This document shows positions 384-9,264 of a DNA stretch of 47,241 bases, one piece after another. The position numbers were made by a program, and so were the translations under genes. The notes under the pieces are model-generated. The model was not told the origin of the DNA. It made no database searches and was given only the letters and a program-made list of their open reading frames with translations. This DNA is from Bacteroidota bacterium (GTDB lineage: Bacteria > Bacteroidota > Bacteroidia > Chitinophagales > LD1). The DNA lies in the NCBI GenBank assembly GCA_947478005.1, contig CANJVG010000013.1:1-47241 (forward strand), read 5' to 3'. The stretch's first letter is position 1, and each line of letters opens with the position of its first letter.

Positions 384-413
384 AAAAAAAGGGCCGGTAC
401 CCCTACCGACCCT
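384..413 (-). terminator. Rho-independent terminator of the decarboxylase operon
   Basis: On the minus strand AGGGTCGGTA-gggg-TACCGGCCCT followed by TTTTTT; 10-bp stem with one G:T wobble, 19 nt past the stop of the 432-1790 ORF. Confidence 0.8.
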
Positions 414-431
414 AACACTAACCAATCCTTA

Positions 432-1790
432 TTACAACTTAAATTTCGACAAATACTGCGGCATTACCTCGCTGCTTTCAATAGCTGAAAGTGTTTCGCG
501 TTGGCGGATTAAGTGCGGTTTGCTTTGCATATCAATCATCACCACAGCCGGGCGAAGCGAAATAAACTGCATCCACTGAGTCATATTATATGCACCTACG
601 TTGTGCACCACCACCTGGTCGTCCTTCTTCAGTGGAGGCAGGGTTACGTTCTCGCGAATCACATCTATGTTCATGCATAGTGGGCCATAGAGCACACAAT
701 CTTCGGTATAGTTGCTGAACTCCTGCGCGGGTGAAATTTTATGGTCATACCAAAACGAAGTAAACATGATGTTCACGCCAAAATCCATAATCGTAGCACG
801 TCTTCCATCACTCAATCGTTTGTTACTGATAACCGTGCCGAGCAAGAAGCCCGCCTCATCAATCAGCGCGCGACCTGTTTCAAGAATCAGCAAAGGCAAT
901 TCATCCTTTCCAAAACCGGCATTCAATATGGCGGTGGAAATAGCCTCAGCAAACTGGTCGAAATTAGGATTAGAATCAGCGCCTTGCAGGTAAGAGCCCT
1001 TGAGCGTATTCTTCGAAGCAAAGCCTCCGCCCATATCAATGTATTGAATATCGCGTTTGAATTTGCGCTTGATGCCGAGCGCAAGGTCGCTCATTTTAGC
1101 AGCCGCAATGCCATAAGCACTTGGCGATAGCATAAAGGTGCCGATGTGACAATGCAAACCAATCAACTCCAACTTATCGGCCAACACAATTTTGTTGATG
1201 GCATCCCAAGCCTGTCCGTTTTCATAATTAAAACCGAAGCGGTCCCATATGGGATAAATGCCAGTGTCCATATTTACACGAATAGCCACATTAGGCCGCG
1301 CTTTTAATTCTTCGGCCAATTCAGTTAGGCGATAAAGTTCATCGAGGTGATCGATATGAATAGGTGAATTGTTTTTGATAGCAGCAGTCAAATCTTCATC
1401 CGTCTTATCGGGCCCGTTAAAAATCACCTTGTTGCCGGGAACTCCGTTTTGAATTGCCTTTTGATATTCAAAACCGCTCACTACTTCGCCCCAAGAGCCT
1501 TCCTGATGAAACACGTTGCACACCGCATTGATGTAATTGGTTTTATAACTCCACGCAAACTGAACTTTTGGATAGCGCGTTTTAAAAGCGCGGTTCACTT
1601 CCTTGTAAGTATTTCGGATTGTCTTTTCAGAAATAACAAACAGCGGTGAGCCGAATTCTGCCAGCAAACTTTTTACGCTTACATCATCAATATGGCTTAC
1701 CGGTGCGTATTCAGTTCTGGTGCCAAACTTGTTCATCAACCCGGTGTTCAAGCGCTGAATGAGGGGTCTTTCGTATTGTAGCTTTTTCAT
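432..1790 (-). CDS. PLP-dependent fold-type III decarboxylase (diaminopimelate/ornithine decarboxylase LysA-like)
   Basis: Motifs FAWSYKTNY (PLP lysine), HCHIGT, DMGGGF, ETGRALID, GPLCMNIDVI and HNVGAYNMTQW are typical of the LysA/alanine-racemase-fold decarboxylases. Confidence 0.88.
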   Translation of the reverse strand: MKKLQYERPLIQRLNTGLMNKFGTRTEYAPVSHIDDVSVKSLLAEFGSPLFVISEKTIRNTYKEVNRAFKTRYPKVQFAWSYKTNYINAVCNVFHQEGSWGEVVSGFEYQKAIQNGVPGNKVIFNGPDKTDEDLTAAIKNNSPIHIDHLDELYRLTELAEELKARPNVAIRVNMDTGIYPIWDRFGFNYENGQAWDAINKIVLADKLELIGLHCHIGTFMLSPSAYGIAAAKMSDLALGIKRKFKRDIQYIDMGGGFASKNTLKGSYLQGADSNPNFDQFAEAISTAILNAGFGKDELPLLILETGRALIDEAGFLLGTVISNKRLSDGRRATIMDFGVNIMFTSFWYDHKISPAQEFSNYTEDCVLYGPLCMNIDVIRENVTLPPLKKDDQVVVHNVGAYNMTQWMQFISLRPAVVMIDMQSKPHLIRQRETLSAIESSEVMPQYLSKFKL

Positions 1791-1808
1791 AATTGGATTT
1801 CTTTGGGT

Positions 1809-2861
1809 TTACAATTCTCCAAGCGTAGAGATGGTTTCAAATTCTTTTAAATCACAAATCATATCATAACTGTAGCGGATAAACATTTTGCCAATGTCAT
1901 AGTGCTCAAACGATTTTACGTCATCGCCTAAGGCCAATTTCAATAAAGCCTCGGGATGATTTTGTCCGGCACCTACGGCCAGATAAACCCAGGCCGGTGT
2001 TCGCGGATTTATTTCTATCAGGTAATACTCCCCTTCGTTGGTCTTTATCATTTCTAATTCACACGGGCCTCTCCATTTAGAATTGCCAATCAGTTTCCGG
2101 CAAATGCCCAGTAGATTTTCGTCTTCCAAAGTAATGCCCGCCCAAGCTTTACCTTTGTCGGTAATTACCTGTTTACGCATAGGCACCGCGCCAATAGTAT
2201 TTCCATTGCCATCACCCAGGGCAGTTACATTTACTTCGGTTCCGTAAGTGAATTGCTGAATGATAATCGGCAGACCCCACTTGGCGCTTATCTTATTAAA
2301 ATACTGCGCTGCTTGGTCGGGTGTATAGGCTACCGATGCATCGTAGAATTTCCCTTTCACTACTAAAGGATAGGTGAACTCATGAGTAAGTGCCGGGATT
2401 TCAGCAATGCTGAAAATCATTTTACTCTTGGGCACTTTGATATCATACTTCGAACCAAAGACCGGAAGATTGGATTTGTGCCGCTCCTCAAATTGTTCCA
2501 ATGTTGGCAGAAAACTTTTAATGCCTAATTCCTTTTCAAGAGTCGGAGCCATCTTTATAAAGTTATAAAGCTCGGCATCAAAATTCGGAATGATGACATC
2601 TATATTCTCTGCGCTGTTGATGTATCTCAAACGCTCCATAATACTGGCAATTCCGGCAGATGGAAGCGGAATCTGGTAAGATTTATCTACCAGATCGTGC
2701 ATATAAATGCCGGGTTCCAGCGCATCATACGAAAGCCCGATAATGCGAACATCATACTCCTTGCTATCGCGCAATCCCCTTATTACAGGAATCCCGGGCC
2801 CCGGACTATCAATATTATTTAGTCCGGTAACTGCTACCGTTACATTTTTCTTACTTGGCAT
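1809..2861 (-). CDS. ATP-grasp family ligase (carbamoyl-phosphate-synthase L-chain/PylC-like)
   Basis: ATP-grasp signatures: YPLVVKGKF, PIIIQQFTYGTEVNVTALGD, GPCELEMIKTNEGEYYLIEINPRTPAW. Confidence 0.85.
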   Translation of the reverse strand: MPSKKNVTVAVTGLNNIDSPGPGIPVIRGLRDSKEYDVRIIGLSYDALEPGIYMHDLVDKSYQIPLPSAGIASIMERLRYINSAENIDVIIPNFDAELYNFIKMAPTLEKELGIKSFLPTLEQFEERHKSNLPVFGSKYDIKVPKSKMIFSIAEIPALTHEFTYPLVVKGKFYDASVAYTPDQAAQYFNKISAKWGLPIIIQQFTYGTEVNVTALGDGNGNTIGAVPMRKQVITDKGKAWAGITLEDENLLGICRKLIGNSKWRGPCELEMIKTNEGEYYLIEINPRTPAWVYLAVGAGQNHPEALLKLALGDDVKSFEHYDIGKMFIRYSYDMICDLKEFETISTLGEL

Positions 2862-3102
2862 CGGCTTCAGTTAATTGCAGTTGCTCAAGCATCTTGGTAA
2901 AATCATAAAAATCCTTTTCCACCGAATCGGCATCGGTGCTATAGGTTTCAAGTAACTGTTTCTTGATTTTGTCGTGCGGTTCGTTGTCCTTCAACTTCCG
3001 CAGAATTTCTAAACCGATTGGGTTTACCGAAAATGAATCTCCGGTAGAGGGGTTAAACACAAAGCCGGTATCGCTGAGTGCTATGTTCTTCTTTATTTTC
3101 AT
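2851..3102 (-). CDS. PqqD-like small protein (RRE/PqqD fold)
   Basis: 83 aa; pattern DTGFVFNPSTGDSFSVNPIGLEILRKLKDNEPHDKIKKQLLETYSTDADSVEKDFYDFTKMLEQLQL matches PqqD-like architecture; overlaps the ATP-grasp start by 11 nt. Confidence 0.75.
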   Translation of the reverse strand: MKIKKNIALSDTGFVFNPSTGDSFSVNPIGLEILRKLKDNEPHDKIKKQLLETYSTDADSVEKDFYDFTKMLEQLQLTEADAK

Positions 3103-3130
3103 CTGTCTCTATTTTATTTTTTAACGGTCA

Positions 3131-3155
3131 GATGGAATGTCCATGATATTCCATC
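3131..3155. promoter_or_regulatory. Perfect 8-bp inverted repeat upstream of the PqqD-like gene
   Basis: GATGGAAT-gtccatgat-ATTCCATC lies 29-53 nt upstream of the minus-strand start at 3102. Confidence 0.45.
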
Positions 3156-3272
3156 TTTAATATTTACTGAATCATGGCATTTCATAATTATTGATTTGCT
3201 TTATTGAACGTGCAAATGTGCCGAAGGTTTAGTGAACCACCGTTACAAGATTCGGGAAAAAAGTTATAGAAT

Positions 3273-3878
3273 TTAGGATTGGGGGAACCGGTTAAGGGGT
3301 ATCCGCTTCTTATGAAACTCCTTTTTATAGTCGTTCACATTTACTCCCGTTACCTGCTTAAACTGATTGGAAAGATATTGCACACTGCTATAGCCCATCA
3401 TCTGGGCTATTTCACTTAAAGTAAGTTCGCCATAGCTGATGAGTTCCTTCACCTTTTCCATTTTAATCTGAATCACATACTTCTCGAGCGTAAGGTTTGT
3501 TTTAGCAGAAAACAATTTACTTAAAACATGATATGGCTCGCCCAGTTTCTGACTTAAATAATCAGAGTTACGAATAATAGTATTGGTGTTATTGCCGAAG
3601 AAAATAAGCTGAATTACAGACTGCTTGATTTGCTCCACCAGTTTATCTTCTCTGTCATCAATCAGCGCAAAGCCGCTGTTCTTTAATATTTCATCAATCA
3701 ACGAAAGGCCGATTACCTGTTCGTTGTAACTTATCACAGCCTTGCCCAATTCTACATGCTCAACTTTAATAAACCCGGTGCGTTCTAATTCTAGTCGCAC
3801 CAATTTCACACAGCTATCGCTCACCATATTGCGGATATGGATAGTAGATTGTTTGGTATTGAGGTTAGATGGCTGCAT
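3273..3878 (-). CDS. AraC-family HTH regulator with N-terminal HMA-like (ferredoxin-like) domain
   Basis: N-terminal HIRNMVSDSCVKLVRLELERTGF...VEHVELGKAVISY resembles an HMA domain with a degraded CxxC; C-terminal LTLSEIAQMMGYSSVQYLSNQFKQVTGVNVNDYKK is an AraC HTH. Confidence 0.85.
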   Translation of the reverse strand: MQPSNLNTKQSTIHIRNMVSDSCVKLVRLELERTGFIKVEHVELGKAVISYNEQVIGLSLIDEILKNSGFALIDDREDKLVEQIKQSVIQLIFFGNNTNTIIRNSDYLSQKLGEPYHVLSKLFSAKTNLTLEKYVIQIKMEKVKELISYGELTLSEIAQMMGYSSVQYLSNQFKQVTGVNVNDYKKEFHKKRIPLNRFPQS

Positions 3879-3922: not shown

Positions 3923-4285
3923 AAAAAACTGGTCTTCGGAAGCCGAGAGGCAACTCTCAATACAGAAAAAATAATTTACAAAAAACAAGGTTTGGATATT
4001 TTAGAGGAGTTTATACAACTATCCAAACTACATGGAGCTAAAGTGGCAATCATATTTTCCCCCATGTTTAACGATGGCAAAAAGCATTTTGAAGGCTCAG
4101 CTAAATATTTTGAAGCTGTTAAAGGATTACCCGATCGCAAACAAGTTCCATTGTGGGATTATAGGAGCGATTCTATCTGTTTTAATAAAAAATACTTCTA
4201 CAACAACGGGCTTTTAAGTAAACGGGGGGCTGAAAAGTTTTCTTTAAAATTGGGTAAGGATATTAAGTTATATACATCTAAATAA
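3923..4285 (+). pseudogene. 5'-truncated remnant of an SGNH/DUF1574-like protein (C-terminal part only)
   Basis: Frame is open from 3923 (after TAG at 3920-3922) without an ATG: ...TEKIIYKKQGLDILEEFIQLSKLHGAKVAIIFSPMF...YNNGLLSKRGAEKFSLKL; looks like an SGNH C-terminal end lacking the N-terminal GDS block. Confidence 0.5.
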
Positions 4286-4315: not shown

Positions 4316-5521
4316 CTATTTAAGGCCGGCACAAACCCCATCGGCCATCATCCAATATCCTTTGGCGTTGTGGTGTCCATCCAGGGGCCAGTAATAAACT
4401 TCGGGTTTTGTGTGAGTGCTTTTTATCTGCTCGGCATAAAAAGGAAGAAGGTCTATCATGCGTAGGTTGTCTATTTTTTGCAGGCCTTGCAAAATGGCGG
4501 TGAAATCGTAGCTGTAATTATGGGCAATTACTTCGTTCATAAACGGCTGCAACACCACTACCAATTGGCTGTTATTCTTTTTTGCCAAAGCCGCATAGTC
4601 GGCAAAGAGGGCAATGGTGGTTTGGTCCAATTCATTTTTGCGAGCCAGGATATCGGCATCGCGCATCAAAAGCTGATTGTAACCAAGCGCATTAAAATAA
4701 AACCGCGATAAATAACTGAGTGCATAGATGGGCTCCCACCAGGGGCCTTTTCTAAACTGCACCCGGCCGTTAGGCAAAAACCGCCCCATACCACCGCGCA
4801 CCATCAAGTCTACACTTATATCGCCCGATGAAAGCGTTTGCAAAATTATATCGGGTTGATAGGCTACCAGCCGGTCGGCATAGTTTACATAATTAATAAA
4901 CGGGTCGCTGCCACACACGCCCGCGTTCATGACATACACCAGCGAATCGGATTCAAACTTTTTGCGCAGCAGTGAAACATAGTTGGAGTCATAAGACGCC
5001 CCATCGCCTTCGGTAAAGCTATCGCCCAGCGCCAACAGGCGTTTTTCGTTTTTCTTTTTGCCCACCGGCCACTCGGGGTCAGAGTACCCCAATGAGTTGG
5101 AGGGGCGTTCAAAGCGATACTCTTGTTTTGTAATCCAATGGGTTTCATTAGCGGGATTCACATGATACTTCGATTCGCCATTGGCGTTGTAAAAAGAATT
5201 ATAGCCGCTGCCAATTTTCTCTACAAAGGTTTCGTTTATCTTAAACCAGGAAACAAAAGCCTCTGCCAACATCAGCGGAATGATGATAGCCGAACAAACA
5301 GTCAGCCCGAGTTGAAACAGAAGCCGTTTCTTTTGGTGCCAAGTATAATACAGCAAAAGATAAACGCCTATCCATAAATAGACATACACCATTAACCGTG
5401 TGTGCCATTTTATGCAGGCATAATCCACTTTATAGGCCCAGTATATTTCCCATACTAAATAGGGCAGGGCTATTAAAATGAGCACTCCATTAAAATGTTT
5501 TGTCAACCGCGATTCTTTCAT
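4316..5521 (-). CDS. Membrane-anchored SGNH/GDSL hydrolase-like protein
   Basis: N-terminal TM helices; ALGDSFTEGDG block I; WPLDGHHNAKGY block V. Confidence 0.8.
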   Translation of the reverse strand: MKESRLTKHFNGVLILIALPYLVWEIYWAYKVDYACIKWHTRLMVYVYLWIGVYLLLYYTWHQKKRLLFQLGLTVCSAIIIPLMLAEAFVSWFKINETFVEKIGSGYNSFYNANGESKYHVNPANETHWITKQEYRFERPSNSLGYSDPEWPVGKKKNEKRLLALGDSFTEGDGASYDSNYVSLLRKKFESDSLVYVMNAGVCGSDPFINYVNYADRLVAYQPDIILQTLSSGDISVDLMVRGGMGRFLPNGRVQFRKGPWWEPIYALSYLSRFYFNALGYNQLLMRDADILARKNELDQTTIALFADYAALAKKNNSQLVVVLQPFMNEVIAHNYSYDFTAILQGLQKIDNLRMIDLLPFYAEQIKSTHTKPEVYYWPLDGHHNAKGYWMMADGVCAGLK

Positions 5522-5669: not shown

Positions 5670-7127
5670 ATGAAATTAATAACCATAAAAAGACTGTTGC
5701 CGATAATTGCTTTTGCCCTCAGCAAGTTTAGTTATTCGCAGGAGGTGCCGATGGTGCCGCGCCCGGTATCTGGTATGCTTCAATATCCAAATGCAAGCGA
5801 TGCGACTGAATGGTTAGTGAACTCTCCTATGCTTTATAACAAGCGCGTGGATATGATGGTGTCGGCCCCTCCACAGCCACTACCCACGCCAAATGTTGAA
5901 CTGCCAACAATTGATTCAGTGTGGTTAAAGGATAATGCTGATTTGCCTGCCAATGGAGTGAGCAATTATGATAGTAGTAAAGCCGAAAACGGTGTGACGC
6001 TGCTTGACTTAGCTACAAGAAGCATATTGATTGATATTAACGGAAAAGTATTGGGCAAGCTTCCGATTGGCTTAGCCAACTTGTTCCCCGATGGAACCAT
6101 GCTTGGCGCCATTCCTCCGGTATTGATAAAGCTCGATTCGGAGATGAATCTGGTTTGGAAAATATGGGCATCACCCCACCATGAAATAACCACCGATGAG
6201 AACGGATCTATTTATCTGCTCTCAAGTGAAGAACATGATTTTATGGGATTGAAAGTACATTTTGATTTATTGAAAATATTCTCCCCCGAGGGTATTTTAA
6301 TTTATGAATGGCATGTATTCGATCACCTTCAGGATGTGGTTAAAGTAATTTCAAAATCTGCCTACTTAAACACCTTGCATAATGCCTATGATCCCGAAAA
6401 AGAAGTGAGTAGGTATATAGCACAAGACCCTGAAAGGTTTTTTTGGCATCAAATTCCGGTCTATTCCGATACTACCTCTTTTGAGTTTACTCATTTAAAT
6501 TCCATTCAGGTGCTTCCCGAAAATGAAGTTTCAAAGAAAATACCAGCCTTTAAAAAGGGCAACTTGCTGCTAAGCTTTAATCCTTATTCCTGTTACGGGA
6601 TTTTAGATACAGCCACCGGCAAAATTGAATGGGCAGGGTATCTACCTGAGAGAACCACGCTGCACACGCCTTTGTTAACAGCTACCGGAACCATTCTTGT
6701 TTTTCAGAACAGTACACAAAGCAGCCTTTGGCCCAATAAGAAAACGGATGGTTGCTTGAAATATCTTCATAAAATAATTCCTGCTCAAAATCCCAGCCCT
6801 GAGCCTACACCAAGAAATTGGGTAAGTATTACTGAGTATGACCCGGTAACAAATGCCAAGGTTTGGGAATACACGGCCAACCCGAAGGAATCACTGTCGG
6901 CTATGTATTTAGGAAATGCACAACGTTTATCGAACGGAAATACGTTGATATGCACGACTAATGGGGATGGAGGGCAGGTATTTGAAGTAACCCCTGATAA
7001 GCAAATTGTTTGGACCTATACTTCACCGCATAAAAATTTGGGAAATAATACACCACTTAGCTTCTATCGGGCCAAGCGAATTAGTTTTGATATAGCACAG
7101 AAGATAATCCCCGGATTTAAAAAATGA
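5670..7127 (+). CDS. Secreted arylsulfotransferase-like (ASST-type) beta-propeller protein
   Basis: Signal peptide; repeated blades including NAQRLSNGNTLICTTNGDGGQVFEVTPDKQIVWTYTSP, typical of ASST/PQQ-like propellers. Confidence 0.65.
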   Translation: MKLITIKRLLPIIAFALSKFSYSQEVPMVPRPVSGMLQYPNASDATEWLVNSPMLYNKRVDMMVSAPPQPLPTPNVELPTIDSVWLKDNADLPANGVSNYDSSKAENGVTLLDLATRSILIDINGKVLGKLPIGLANLFPDGTMLGAIPPVLIKLDSEMNLVWKIWASPHHEITTDENGSIYLLSSEEHDFMGLKVHFDLLKIFSPEGILIYEWHVFDHLQDVVKVISKSAYLNTLHNAYDPEKEVSRYIAQDPERFFWHQIPVYSDTTSFEFTHLNSIQVLPENEVSKKIPAFKKGNLLLSFNPYSCYGILDTATGKIEWAGYLPERTTLHTPLLTATGTILVFQNSTQSSLWPNKKTDGCLKYLHKIIPAQNPSPEPTPRNWVSITEYDPVTNAKVWEYTANPKESLSAMYLGNAQRLSNGNTLICTTNGDGGQVFEVTPDKQIVWTYTSPHKNLGNNTPLSFYRAKRISFDIAQKIIPGFKK

Positions 7128-7198
7128 GCATCAAGTTTATCCTCCTAATTTTTCATTTGCGTAGTATTACTGCCATAAACTAAACAAAGACGAAGTCC

Positions 7199-8275
7199 AT
7201 GACTCCCGCACAGGTATTTAATTTAGTAATAACAAAGGAGTATCCTGCTACCCTAGTTCATTTCCTCACCGACCGGTGCAATGCCCGATGCCCATTTTGT
7301 TTTATAGACTTTGATTCTCCGCAACACGGCAAAAACGAACTGAGCTTGCCGGAGATAGAAGATATAACCAAGCAGTTGCCCCGATCTTTAATGAACGTAA
7401 ATTTTACAGGTGGTGAACCCTTTTTGCGCAACGATATCTATGAAGTTGCCAAGGCCTATTTCACCAACTCAGCGGTTCAAAGCATTTTCATAACGTCTAA
7501 TGGATACTTTACCGAAAGGATAAAAAACTTTTGCCTGAGAATTTTAAAAGAATTTCCCGACAAAGAAGTTTTCATAGCTCTTTCCATTGATGACTTTCCA
7601 GAGAGCCACGATAAAATCAGAAAGGTAAAAGGCTTGTTCACTAAGTGCATGGAAACCTTTGCTATGCTGAAACAACTTCCGGTAAATGTTCGTCCTTCAG
7701 TATCTATCACTGTTTCGCAGGAGAACTACCAGCATGCAGAAGCTATTTACGAACTGCTGATAAATGAATATGGGGTTGATGCTATACAGTTGATAATGGT
7801 GCGAAGCGAAGGAGTATTTAAGTTTGATGAAAATTTCCGACAGCCCATGTTGCAGGTATATTCCAAACTTTCCGAGCGGTTAAAGGAAGACTATAGCACC
7901 AATCGGTTGAAAGGATTTAACCGGCATTCGGTGCGAGGTAAAATTCTTAATAAAAAGAATGAACTTTCCCGAAATATTCTGACGCAATATTTACATACTC
8001 CTCATTATATGCATCCCTGCCGAGCTGCCGCTTTGTTCGGAGTTATCACCGCTACTGGCGATGTTTATCCATGCGAGGTATTGAGCAAATCAATGGGAAA
8101 TTTACGTCAATACAATTACGACTTAAGGCAGTTATGGCAAGATAAAGCCGCGGAGGATGTCCGTTCGTTTATTTCCAAAACCAATTGCAACTGCGAATAT
8201 GAGTGCGCCATGAGTGTAAACATTCTTTCCAATCCTAAATATTTTCCGGCTGTTGTTGCGGGTTTGGTTCAATGA
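7199..8275 (+). CDS. Radical SAM protein with SPASM-type C-terminal domain
   Basis: CNARCPFC (CX3CX2C), NFTGGEPFLR, C-terminal CRAAALFGVITATGDVYPCEVLSKSMGNLRQ...CNCEYEC. Confidence 0.9.
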   Translation: MTPAQVFNLVITKEYPATLVHFLTDRCNARCPFCFIDFDSPQHGKNELSLPEIEDITKQLPRSLMNVNFTGGEPFLRNDIYEVAKAYFTNSAVQSIFITSNGYFTERIKNFCLRILKEFPDKEVFIALSIDDFPESHDKIRKVKGLFTKCMETFAMLKQLPVNVRPSVSITVSQENYQHAEAIYELLINEYGVDAIQLIMVRSEGVFKFDENFRQPMLQVYSKLSERLKEDYSTNRLKGFNRHSVRGKILNKKNELSRNILTQYLHTPHYMHPCRAAALFGVITATGDVYPCEVLSKSMGNLRQYNYDLRQLWQDKAAEDVRSFISKTNCNCEYECAMSVNILSNPKYFPAVVAGLVQ

Positions 8276-9264
8276 AAGAAGTAAGCATCATTATTCCGTC
8301 TGTAAAATGGGAGCCATTTACGGAGCAATGTGTTACCACCTGCGCCAATTTATTTCCGCAATCGAAAATTATTCTGATTCTGAATGACCAAACTCCGGTA
8401 AAGCGTTCGATTCAGAACCTCACTGTTTTGTATGGCCATGAAGGGACTATCTCTCTCAAGAGAAATATAGCCGTAAAGGCGGCCAAAACCGAGTTTGTTG
8501 CTTTTATAGACAGCGATGCTTATCCGCATAAAGATTGGTTGGACAACGCTTTGCAAACCCTCAAAACGGATACAAGCATTGGAATGGCGGGTGGACCCAA
8601 TATATCGCCACCTGCACAAGAGCAGGAAAGAACTCTGGTAGGCATGGCAACTAAAAGTTGGCTGGTGGCCGGTAAGTGGAATTTCTATAAGTCAGAAACC
8701 TCCTCTGCGCGCTATTGCGACAACCTGCCTTCCTGCAATCTTATTTTACGAAAGAGCTTATTTGAAGAATTGAATGGAATGAATAAAGAACTGGAGGTGG
8801 GAGAGGACACGGATTTTTGTGCCCGGATGATTGCTGCTGGGCATCTCGTATATTTCAATCCGAAAGTAGTTGTGTATCATTACGACCGAAAAATCTCAGA
8901 CTACTTTCGACAGCGAATAGTCCGTGGAGCCGGTGTGTTTTTACTTCTTTCTAGCAGTTCACCACAGAAGGAAAATCTTTATACCTATTTGCTACTTCAG
9001 CCGGTATTTACTTTGTTGTTTTGGTTATCGTTTCCATTAGGTCTTTGGTGGCAGTCTTGGTTATATTTAATGATAATATTTGGCGGCATATATTTACTCC
9101 TGATAATTAGGGAAGCATTTAAACACAGCACTAGAATGAAATATTTACCAATGGTGATTGCGCTTATACTCGCAGGAAATATTCTGCCGGGAGTTGGTTT
9201 TATTTTGAAGGCTTTTCATCTGTTACCTTCGCTACAGTCTTTTTACAGAAATGATAAAGGCTAA
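8272..9264 (+). CDS. Glycosyltransferase family 2
   Basis: VSIIIPSVK, SLKRNIAVKAAKTEFVAFIDSDAYPHKDWLDNAL, EVGEDTDFCARM; C-terminal TM helices; ATGA overlap with the preceding gene. Confidence 0.88.
   Translation: MKEVSIIIPSVKWEPFTEQCVTTCANLFPQSKIILILNDQTPVKRSIQNLTVLYGHEGTISLKRNIAVKAAKTEFVAFIDSDAYPHKDWLDNALQTLKTDTSIGMAGGPNISPPAQEQERTLVGMATKSWLVAGKWNFYKSETSSARYCDNLPSCNLILRKSLFEELNGMNKELEVGEDTDFCARMIAAGHLVYFNPKVVVYHYDRKISDYFRQRIVRGAGVFLLLSSSSPQKENLYTYLLLQPVFTLLFWLSFPLGLWWQSWLYLMIIFGGIYLLLIIREAFKHSTRMKYLPMVIALILAGNILPGVGFILKAFHLLPSLQSFYRNDKG

Follow-up and report, generated by a model that had tools for sequence, protein, structure and literature searches.

In butirosin biosynthesis, the carrier receives its amino acid from an ATP-grasp ligase (BtrI/BtrJ), and a fold-III enzyme then decarboxylates the loaded residue. 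This enzyme, BtrK, acts on a glutamate, and MccE, likewise a fold-III enzyme, acts on a side group of microcin C (PMC8503589). FigA and FigC (FslA/FslC) form a putrescine-circumventing rhizoferrin pathway, in which ligation comes first and the conjugate is decarboxylated; FigC acts on citrylornithine, and its residues R387 and H357 are predicted to hold citrate (PMC7857480). The locus described here joins an ATP-grasp ligase gene to a gene for a fold-III PLP decarboxylase and places a PqqD-like gene in front of both. It lies in a 47,241-nt stretch of DNA from a Bacteroidota bacterium (contig CANJVG010000013.1), which is called the window in the following.

The three genes and their products

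An ORF check of the window gave three minus-strand genes with ATG starts in the order pqqD-like, ATP-grasp, decarboxylase (Table 1). The three frames, their strand, the 11-nt overlap of pqqD and the ATP-grasp gene (2851-2861) and the 18-nt gap in front of the decarboxylase gene (1791-1808) had been proposed by a sequence-only reading of this DNA and were all reproduced at the same coordinates; its three domain calls agree with the Pfam, profile and model results given below. The strong hairpin terminator named there was likewise borne out by a stem-loop followed by a T run: the region 375-431 folds at -19.6 kcal/mol versus -10.9 kcal/mol for shuffles (z = -3.7; 0 of 200 shuffles were as stable). 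Beyond this terminator, 3' of the decarboxylase gene, the window contains a tRNA-Met gene (140-214). For comparison, GTDB genomes were scanned; among 324 ATP-grasp relatives, the best 80 were analysed as loci.

Table 1. Features of the trio, its upstream region and the second operon half
Feature	Position	Strand	Details
AraC-type regulator gene	3273-3878	-	201 aa, HTH_18 1.9e-12
Direct-repeat operator YRTAAC-N15-YRTAAC	3242-3268	-	21 nt repeat to repeat; between AraC gene and pqqD
TTTG-containing element CACATTTG	3213-3220	-	aligned by eye; relatives have a similar TTTG there
pqqD-like gene	2851-3102	-	83 aa, RRE-type peptide-binding protein; PF05402, profile matches
ATP-grasp ligase gene	1809-2861	-	350 aa; PF15632, model and Foldseek
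Fold-III PLP decarboxylase gene	432-1790	-	452 aa, FigC-like, without citrate- or DAP-reading residues
Intrinsic terminator of the trio	390-413	-	10-pair stem, 4-nt loop, then minus-strand T run
UT-M23 gene	contig C103, 3360-5570	-	same genome as window
TPR-barrel gene	contig C103, 2161-3372	-	same genome as window
TPR protein gene	contig C103, 1533-2255	-	same genome as window

The small protein scores 31.9 bits against PF05402 (cut-off 23.4), and a profile of its family (24 members) matches the lasso-peptide RRE structures 5v1u (1.7e-11) and 6jx3 (1.2e-7). The PqqD fold, on which the sequence-only reading had been staked beforehand, is supported by these profile matches; an RRE-type leader-recognition domain, as found in RiPP gene clusters, is present. 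The gene is the sole PqqD-family match in the host genome; with 17.3 bits versus a cut-off of 46, its product falls below the equivalog model TIGR03859 for PqqD of PQQ biosynthesis. No precursor-peptide gene had been noticed next to the trio, and this absence holds across the 80 related loci: clustering of ORFs of 18-110 codons gave no precursor linked to the operon, the conserved short ORFs being only pqqD, anti-sigma-like genes and antisense frames. No ACP family occurs among the conserved operon genes, and Pfam finds PqqD alone in the small protein. A role of PqqD itself as a LysW-like tail carrier was rejected, because its C-terminus varies in length and sequence. A carrier or precursor encoded away from the operon may still be compatible with the linkage search.

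The ATP-grasp protein matches PF15632 above cut-off. Its confident AlphaFold model (pLDDT 88) resembles, according to Foldseek, biotin carboxylase, 2pn1, the L-amino acid ligases RizA (4wd3) and 3vot, and PylC with lysine (4ffl); the fold is related to those of CarB-like enzymes, L-amino acid ligases and PylC. Residues E283, N285 and R287, together with further sites, are invariant in 22 relatives. The protein was not classified as a graspetide ligase, as it matches PF15632 and PRK12767-type models and has no linked precursor.

The decarboxylase matches PF02784 (3.8e-28) and PF00278 (2.6e-12). Its closest solved relative is the N-citrylornithine decarboxylase FigC (7kh2, 3e-58), and structures of BtrK match at 1.7e-21 to 2.5e-21. 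K83, the PLP lysine, and C372 do not vary. In the alignment with 7kh2, the FigC pocket residues M355, Y383, Y331 and T327 correspond to M373, Y401, Y348 and T344, and R387 and H357, the putative citrate-holding residues, are replaced by Q405 and I375. Likewise, the arginine (RPxLY) and the glutamate (CE(S/T)) of DAP decarboxylases correspond to T344 and M373. All of these residues are invariant in 72-73 of 73 sequences. The protein remains below the cut-offs of both the LysA model (TIGR01048, 214.6 versus 297.9 bits) and the FslC model (238.8 versus 500 bits); it lacks the Arg and Glu by which LysA recognises the D-centre of DAP. The host genome's own LysA, encoded on contig C132, keeps both DAP-reading residues (RPMLY and ICET), and a SpeA-like enzyme is encoded on contig C136. 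An identity as LysA or as a polyamine enzyme was rejected on the basis of the pocket residues and of these genes elsewhere. Because the DAP- and citrate-reading residues are invariantly replaced, the substrate should be neither DAP nor a citryl conjugate; judged from its residues, the pocket would accommodate an amino acid that is extended and carries an N-substituent. The earlier statement that fold-III PLP enzymes decarboxylate diamino acids was therefore right as to the family and too loose as to the substrate, as the DAP-reading residues are absent.

Recurrence, second operon half and upstream region

In the best 80 of 324 ATP-grasp relatives, PqqD, ATP-grasp and decarboxylase follow one another in a practically constant order, and most loci continue on the same strand with three further genes. 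These encode a fusion of about 730 aa, UT-M23, which in the L023 homologue consists of a urea-transporter domain (PF03253, 7e-53) and an M23 peptidase (PF01551, 9e-14), a TPR-barrel protein of about 385-515 aa, and a TPR protein of about 205 aa with a signal-peptide-like start. Where these loci offered enough sequence, the decarboxylase was found in 73/73, UT-M23 in 61/65, the barrel in 50/53 and the TPR protein in 49/53 cases. Even beside more distant ATP-grasp relatives (41-56% identity), the decarboxylase and UT-M23 are still present. The records belong nearly all to Bacteroidota MAGs, a few being titled Kapaibacterium, Ignavibacteriae or Chlorobiota; one record titled Bifidobacterium breve (L050) also carries the Bacteroidota operon and is very likely a mislabelled MAG bin. 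The expected co-occurrence of the trio across Bacteroidota genomes was thus observed, with fixed order in related loci. In the window's genome, the three further genes lie together on another contig (C103), and in the sister genome L023 the whole operon forms one unbroken run; for these reasons we regard the operon as split in the window's lineage and the trio as one half of it. The compact operon originally described is real and its order is fixed across Bacteroidota; what did not stand is that it is self-contained, since it is half of a six-gene system.

The association extends to whole genomes. In a sample of the order (249 genomes), the ATP-grasp gene is present in 19, a count that leaves out two weak matches, and the UT-M23 fusion in the same 19 (in one of them truncated at a contig end); in 8 others, only a separate UT of about 300 aa is present. 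In a sample of the phylum (393 genomes), the ATP-grasp gene occurs in 35, i.e. about 9% of the sampled Bacteroidota genomes carry the operon. All 35 contain a UT domain, and the long UT-M23 frame is found in 34 of them and in 0 of the 358 others; in another eleven genomes, which lack the ATP-grasp gene, UT stands alone. Within the sampled genomes, the fusion is thus restricted to operon carriers. Fisher's test gave P-values of 3e-48 and 7e-29 for the co-occurrence, phylogeny being ignored. The divergences of the families are correlated (r = 0.46-0.93), with 0 of 500 permutations as high. In the 35th genome, G253 (L195, 10944-13195), UT and M23 are two abutting frames meeting at a T7 run, which may reflect a gene that is truly split, a frameshift or a misassembly.

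The UT domain belongs to its family (PF03253, see above). Its urea filter, with positions taken from an alignment, has changed: 51/62 sequences retain Gln24 of dvUT, while Glu187 is replaced by Ala in 52/62, Thr130 by Ser in 53/62 and Thr294 by Ser in 55/62, and the score against urea_trans_yut is 108.6 bits versus a cut-off of 274.6. The M23 domain resembles peptidoglycan endopeptidases; H375, D384, H459, H492 and H494 are conserved in 62/62 sequences, so that the zinc ligands are intact. Lysine and arginine residues are concentrated (mean K+R per sequence) at the N-terminus (3.75), in alternate inner loops (1.69, 1.32 and 0.92) and in the linker to M23 (4.37). The short loops between the inner ones contain only 0.06-0.24, and the long middle loop is mixed (3.7 K+R, 4.5 D+E). 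In UT channels both ends are cytoplasmic; because of this topology and of the positive-charge pattern, the M23 domain is predicted to lie in the cytoplasm. A model of the barrel protein derived from 29 relatives (pLDDT 91) has a signal-peptide-like N-terminus, TPR-like helices and about 14 beta strands, and Foldseek groups it with outer-membrane barrels such as FadL, OmpG and BcsC. The protein is accordingly a predicted 14-strand outer-membrane barrel.

Several genes interrupt or adjoin the operon. In the sister L022, two genes, one of them multicopper-oxidase-like, lie between the decarboxylase and UT. An IF-2B family gene occupies this place in L080 (3730-4575) and L084 (10461-11366) and may encode an extra pathway enzyme. 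DUF2202 genes adjoin the operon in L091 (163-915), with relatives in L087 and L094. Imperfect tandem repeats, open in several frames, lie downstream of the region with the other operon half on C103 (L105, 8992-9525), and degenerate repeated phrases (variants of ctttaaccgcctaggacgtagc) lie just 5' of the operon in L023 (7360-7590).

Just upstream of the trio, an AraC-type regulator gene and a direct repeat are found (Table 1), both in addition to what the sequence-only reading had noticed. The regulator gene adjoins the operon in 22 of the 80 best loci; other loci have ECF-sigma or histidine-kinase/response-regulator neighbours. The operator pattern occurs once in the window (0.05 expected), and its exact form lies 5' of pqqD in 27/76 loci versus 0.007 expected per 400-nt region; all 80 loci (2.1 Mb, both strands) contain 38 matches, and loci without an adjoining AraC gene are among those with the pattern. 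The pattern alone is not specific genome-wide (18 matches versus 58 for the reversed control). The only look-alike with a T-rich spacer, on contig C50, precedes a response-regulator-like ORF. The TTTG element is a possible Bacteroidota -7 box. Since the repeats are two helical turns apart and lie 5' of TTTG, they look like an AraC-family activator site, through which the regulator would act. No operator was found upstream of the C103 half, and a single regulon for both halves in the window's genome was therefore rejected. The N-terminus of the AraC protein weakly resembles an HMA domain (14.0 bits, below the cut-off of 24.8); together with the multicopper-oxidase-like insert in L022, this was regarded as a weak hint only, and a link to metals was not adopted. 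The pqqD leader contains a near-perfect inverted repeat (AGATGGAATGTC / GATATTCCATCT, 3130-3156), which is not evident in the relatives compared.

Elsewhere on the plus strand of the window, a 97-codon frame (3992-4285) resembles by eye an SGNH/GDSL-type remnant near an intact GDSL gene (4316-5521, minus strand), and a run of arylsulfotransferase-like, radical SAM/SPASM and family 2 glycosyltransferase genes spans 5670-9264. The glycosyltransferase partially matches mycofactocin MftF (102 bits versus a cut-off of 280).

A possible carrier-based biosynthesis model and its alternatives

Gene content, order, co-occurrence, intact catalytic residues, operator and barrel model are computational results of this analysis. 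Tentatively, and as a possibility rather than a probability, we favour the reading that a conserved six-gene system for a small molecule spans the envelope, with the trio as its biosynthetic half in the cytoplasm; we infer every reaction, the carrier and the direction. In a first step, the PqqD-like RRE would hold a carrier peptide or protein tail encoded elsewhere; the ATP-grasp enzyme would then ligate an amino acid to this carrier, probably via its side-chain amine. After ligation, the FigC-like decarboxylase would remove the alpha-carboxylate of the carrier-bound amino acid. At the cytoplasmic mouth of the channel, where the M23 domain is predicted to be located, this domain would cut the product off the carrier. 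The product would exit by way of the UT-like pore and the 14-strand outer-membrane barrel; the TPR protein would be an adaptor. The idea of building on a peptide and clipping afterwards stems from the combination of an RRE, a ligase and a decarboxylase with a cytoplasmic peptidase at the mouth of a narrow channel, and the order of loading, decarboxylation, clipping and export is preferred because of the precedents of fold-III enzymes acting on bound residues.

The model is based on the fixed gene order, the co-occurrence with UT-M23, the three genes together on C103 and the correlated divergence; on the RRE profile, the ligase-like fold and the kinship of the decarboxylase, with its invariant non-LysA pocket, to an N-acyl amino acid decarboxylase; and on the M23 zinc ligands, the inside-positive charge and the barrel model. 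Against it count, most of all, the lack of a linked carrier, the PqqD C-terminus being too variable to be one, and the location of the halves on different contigs, the second without the operator. In addition, a cytoplasmic M23 peptidase would be unusual, and UT pores pass very small solutes. The stronger claim of a new carrier-peptide pathway is doubtful: here, the RRE presents a peptide, the ATP-grasp enzyme charges it, a dedicated decarboxylase acts on the bound residue, the cytoplasmic M23 domain, fused to a modified urea channel, releases a small amine or amide directly into the pore, and export proceeds via a dedicated barrel. The earlier proposal of activation, coupling and decarboxylation fits the gene and fold evidence; it misses the half consisting of UT-M23, barrel and TPR protein.

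We consider it unlikely that the operon encodes a conventional RiPP, in which PqqD and ATP-grasp, together with the decarboxylase, modify a ribosomal peptide that is encoded elsewhere and remains a peptide, M23 is the leader peptidase and the barrel the exit. The RRE profile, the ATP-grasp enzyme and the intact M23 domain would suit this reading, but the 80 loci contain no linked precursor, the conserved operon genes include no ABC peptide exporter, the ATP-grasp protein matches PF15632 and no graspetide model, and a peptide is too large for a pore of the UT type.

Rather unlikely, too, is a modification of the envelope, in which peptidoglycan or an envelope protein gains or loses a decarboxylated amino-acid group made by the enzymes, and a periplasmic M23 domain cuts peptidoglycan for assembly of the TPR-barrel complex. 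The resemblance of M23 to peptidoglycan endopeptidases, the export of the barrel and TPR proteins, and the ECF-sigma or histidine-kinase neighbours at some loci are consistent with it. However, the charge pattern and UT homology put M23 in the cytoplasm, and the RRE is left unexplained.

The reverse direction, i.e. import of a small amide or urea-like compound through barrel and UT pore and its conversion by the cytoplasmic enzymes, appears quite improbable. Transport by UT channels is passive and possible either way, and AraC-type control suits induction by a substrate; yet a ligase that consumes ATP, paired with an RRE, is a hallmark of biosynthesis, the filter for urea has changed, and the conserved operon genes include neither a hydrolase nor a urease. 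An ordinary lysine or polyamine set, in which free amino acids are the substrates of a LysA, ornithine or lysine decarboxylase and the neighbouring genes are incidental, is very improbable: it accounts for the fold-III family membership, but not for LysA and the SpeA-like enzyme encoded elsewhere, the invariant Thr344 and Met373 in place of the DAP-reading residues, or the strict linkage to ATP-grasp and UT-M23. An identity as an anti-phage defence system was rejected, as none of the five proteins compared matched PADLOC-DB.

If the favoured biosynthetic model is right, the operon would add a route by which small molecules are built on a peptide independently of tRNA and ACP, and would provide a function for a class of PqqD proteins and urea-transporter homologues. 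The likely automatic names "urea transporter" and "diaminopimelate decarboxylase" would mislead.

Relation to described systems

A literature search found no paper describing the operon and, among the papers searched, no co-mention of PqqD, ATP-grasp and urea transporter, of PqqD and urea transporter, or of urea transporter and peptidase M23; the six-gene system is apparently undescribed. On comparison, its parts are known folds and its ligate-then-decarboxylate logic has precedents, while the full set of six genes matches no named system that we know.

The lasso-type, RRE-dependent RiPP systems (5v1u, 6jx3) resemble the operon in their stand-alone PqqD-fold protein, to which ours is closest by profile; the operon differs in having no linked precursor, cyclase or ABC exporter, and in its enzymes. 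Urea transporters (dvUT, 3k3f/3m6e; Yut) and M23 endopeptidases are recognized in the second half by PF03253, PF01551 and the intact zinc ligands. Here, in contrast, both are fused, the filter is altered (Ala for E187, Ser for T130 and T294) and M23 is predicted to be cytoplasmic. With BtrI/J/K, the operon shares the ATP-grasp gene adjoining that of a fold-III decarboxylase, whereas the ACP with its phosphopantetheine site is replaced by a PqqD-like RRE and export genes are attached. FigA/FigC is similar in that ligation comes first and the conjugate is decarboxylated second, and FigC (7kh2) is the closest solved relative of the decarboxylase; the ligase there is an NIS synthetase rather than an ATP-grasp enzyme, and the RRE, UT-M23 and the barrel have no counterpart in that pathway.
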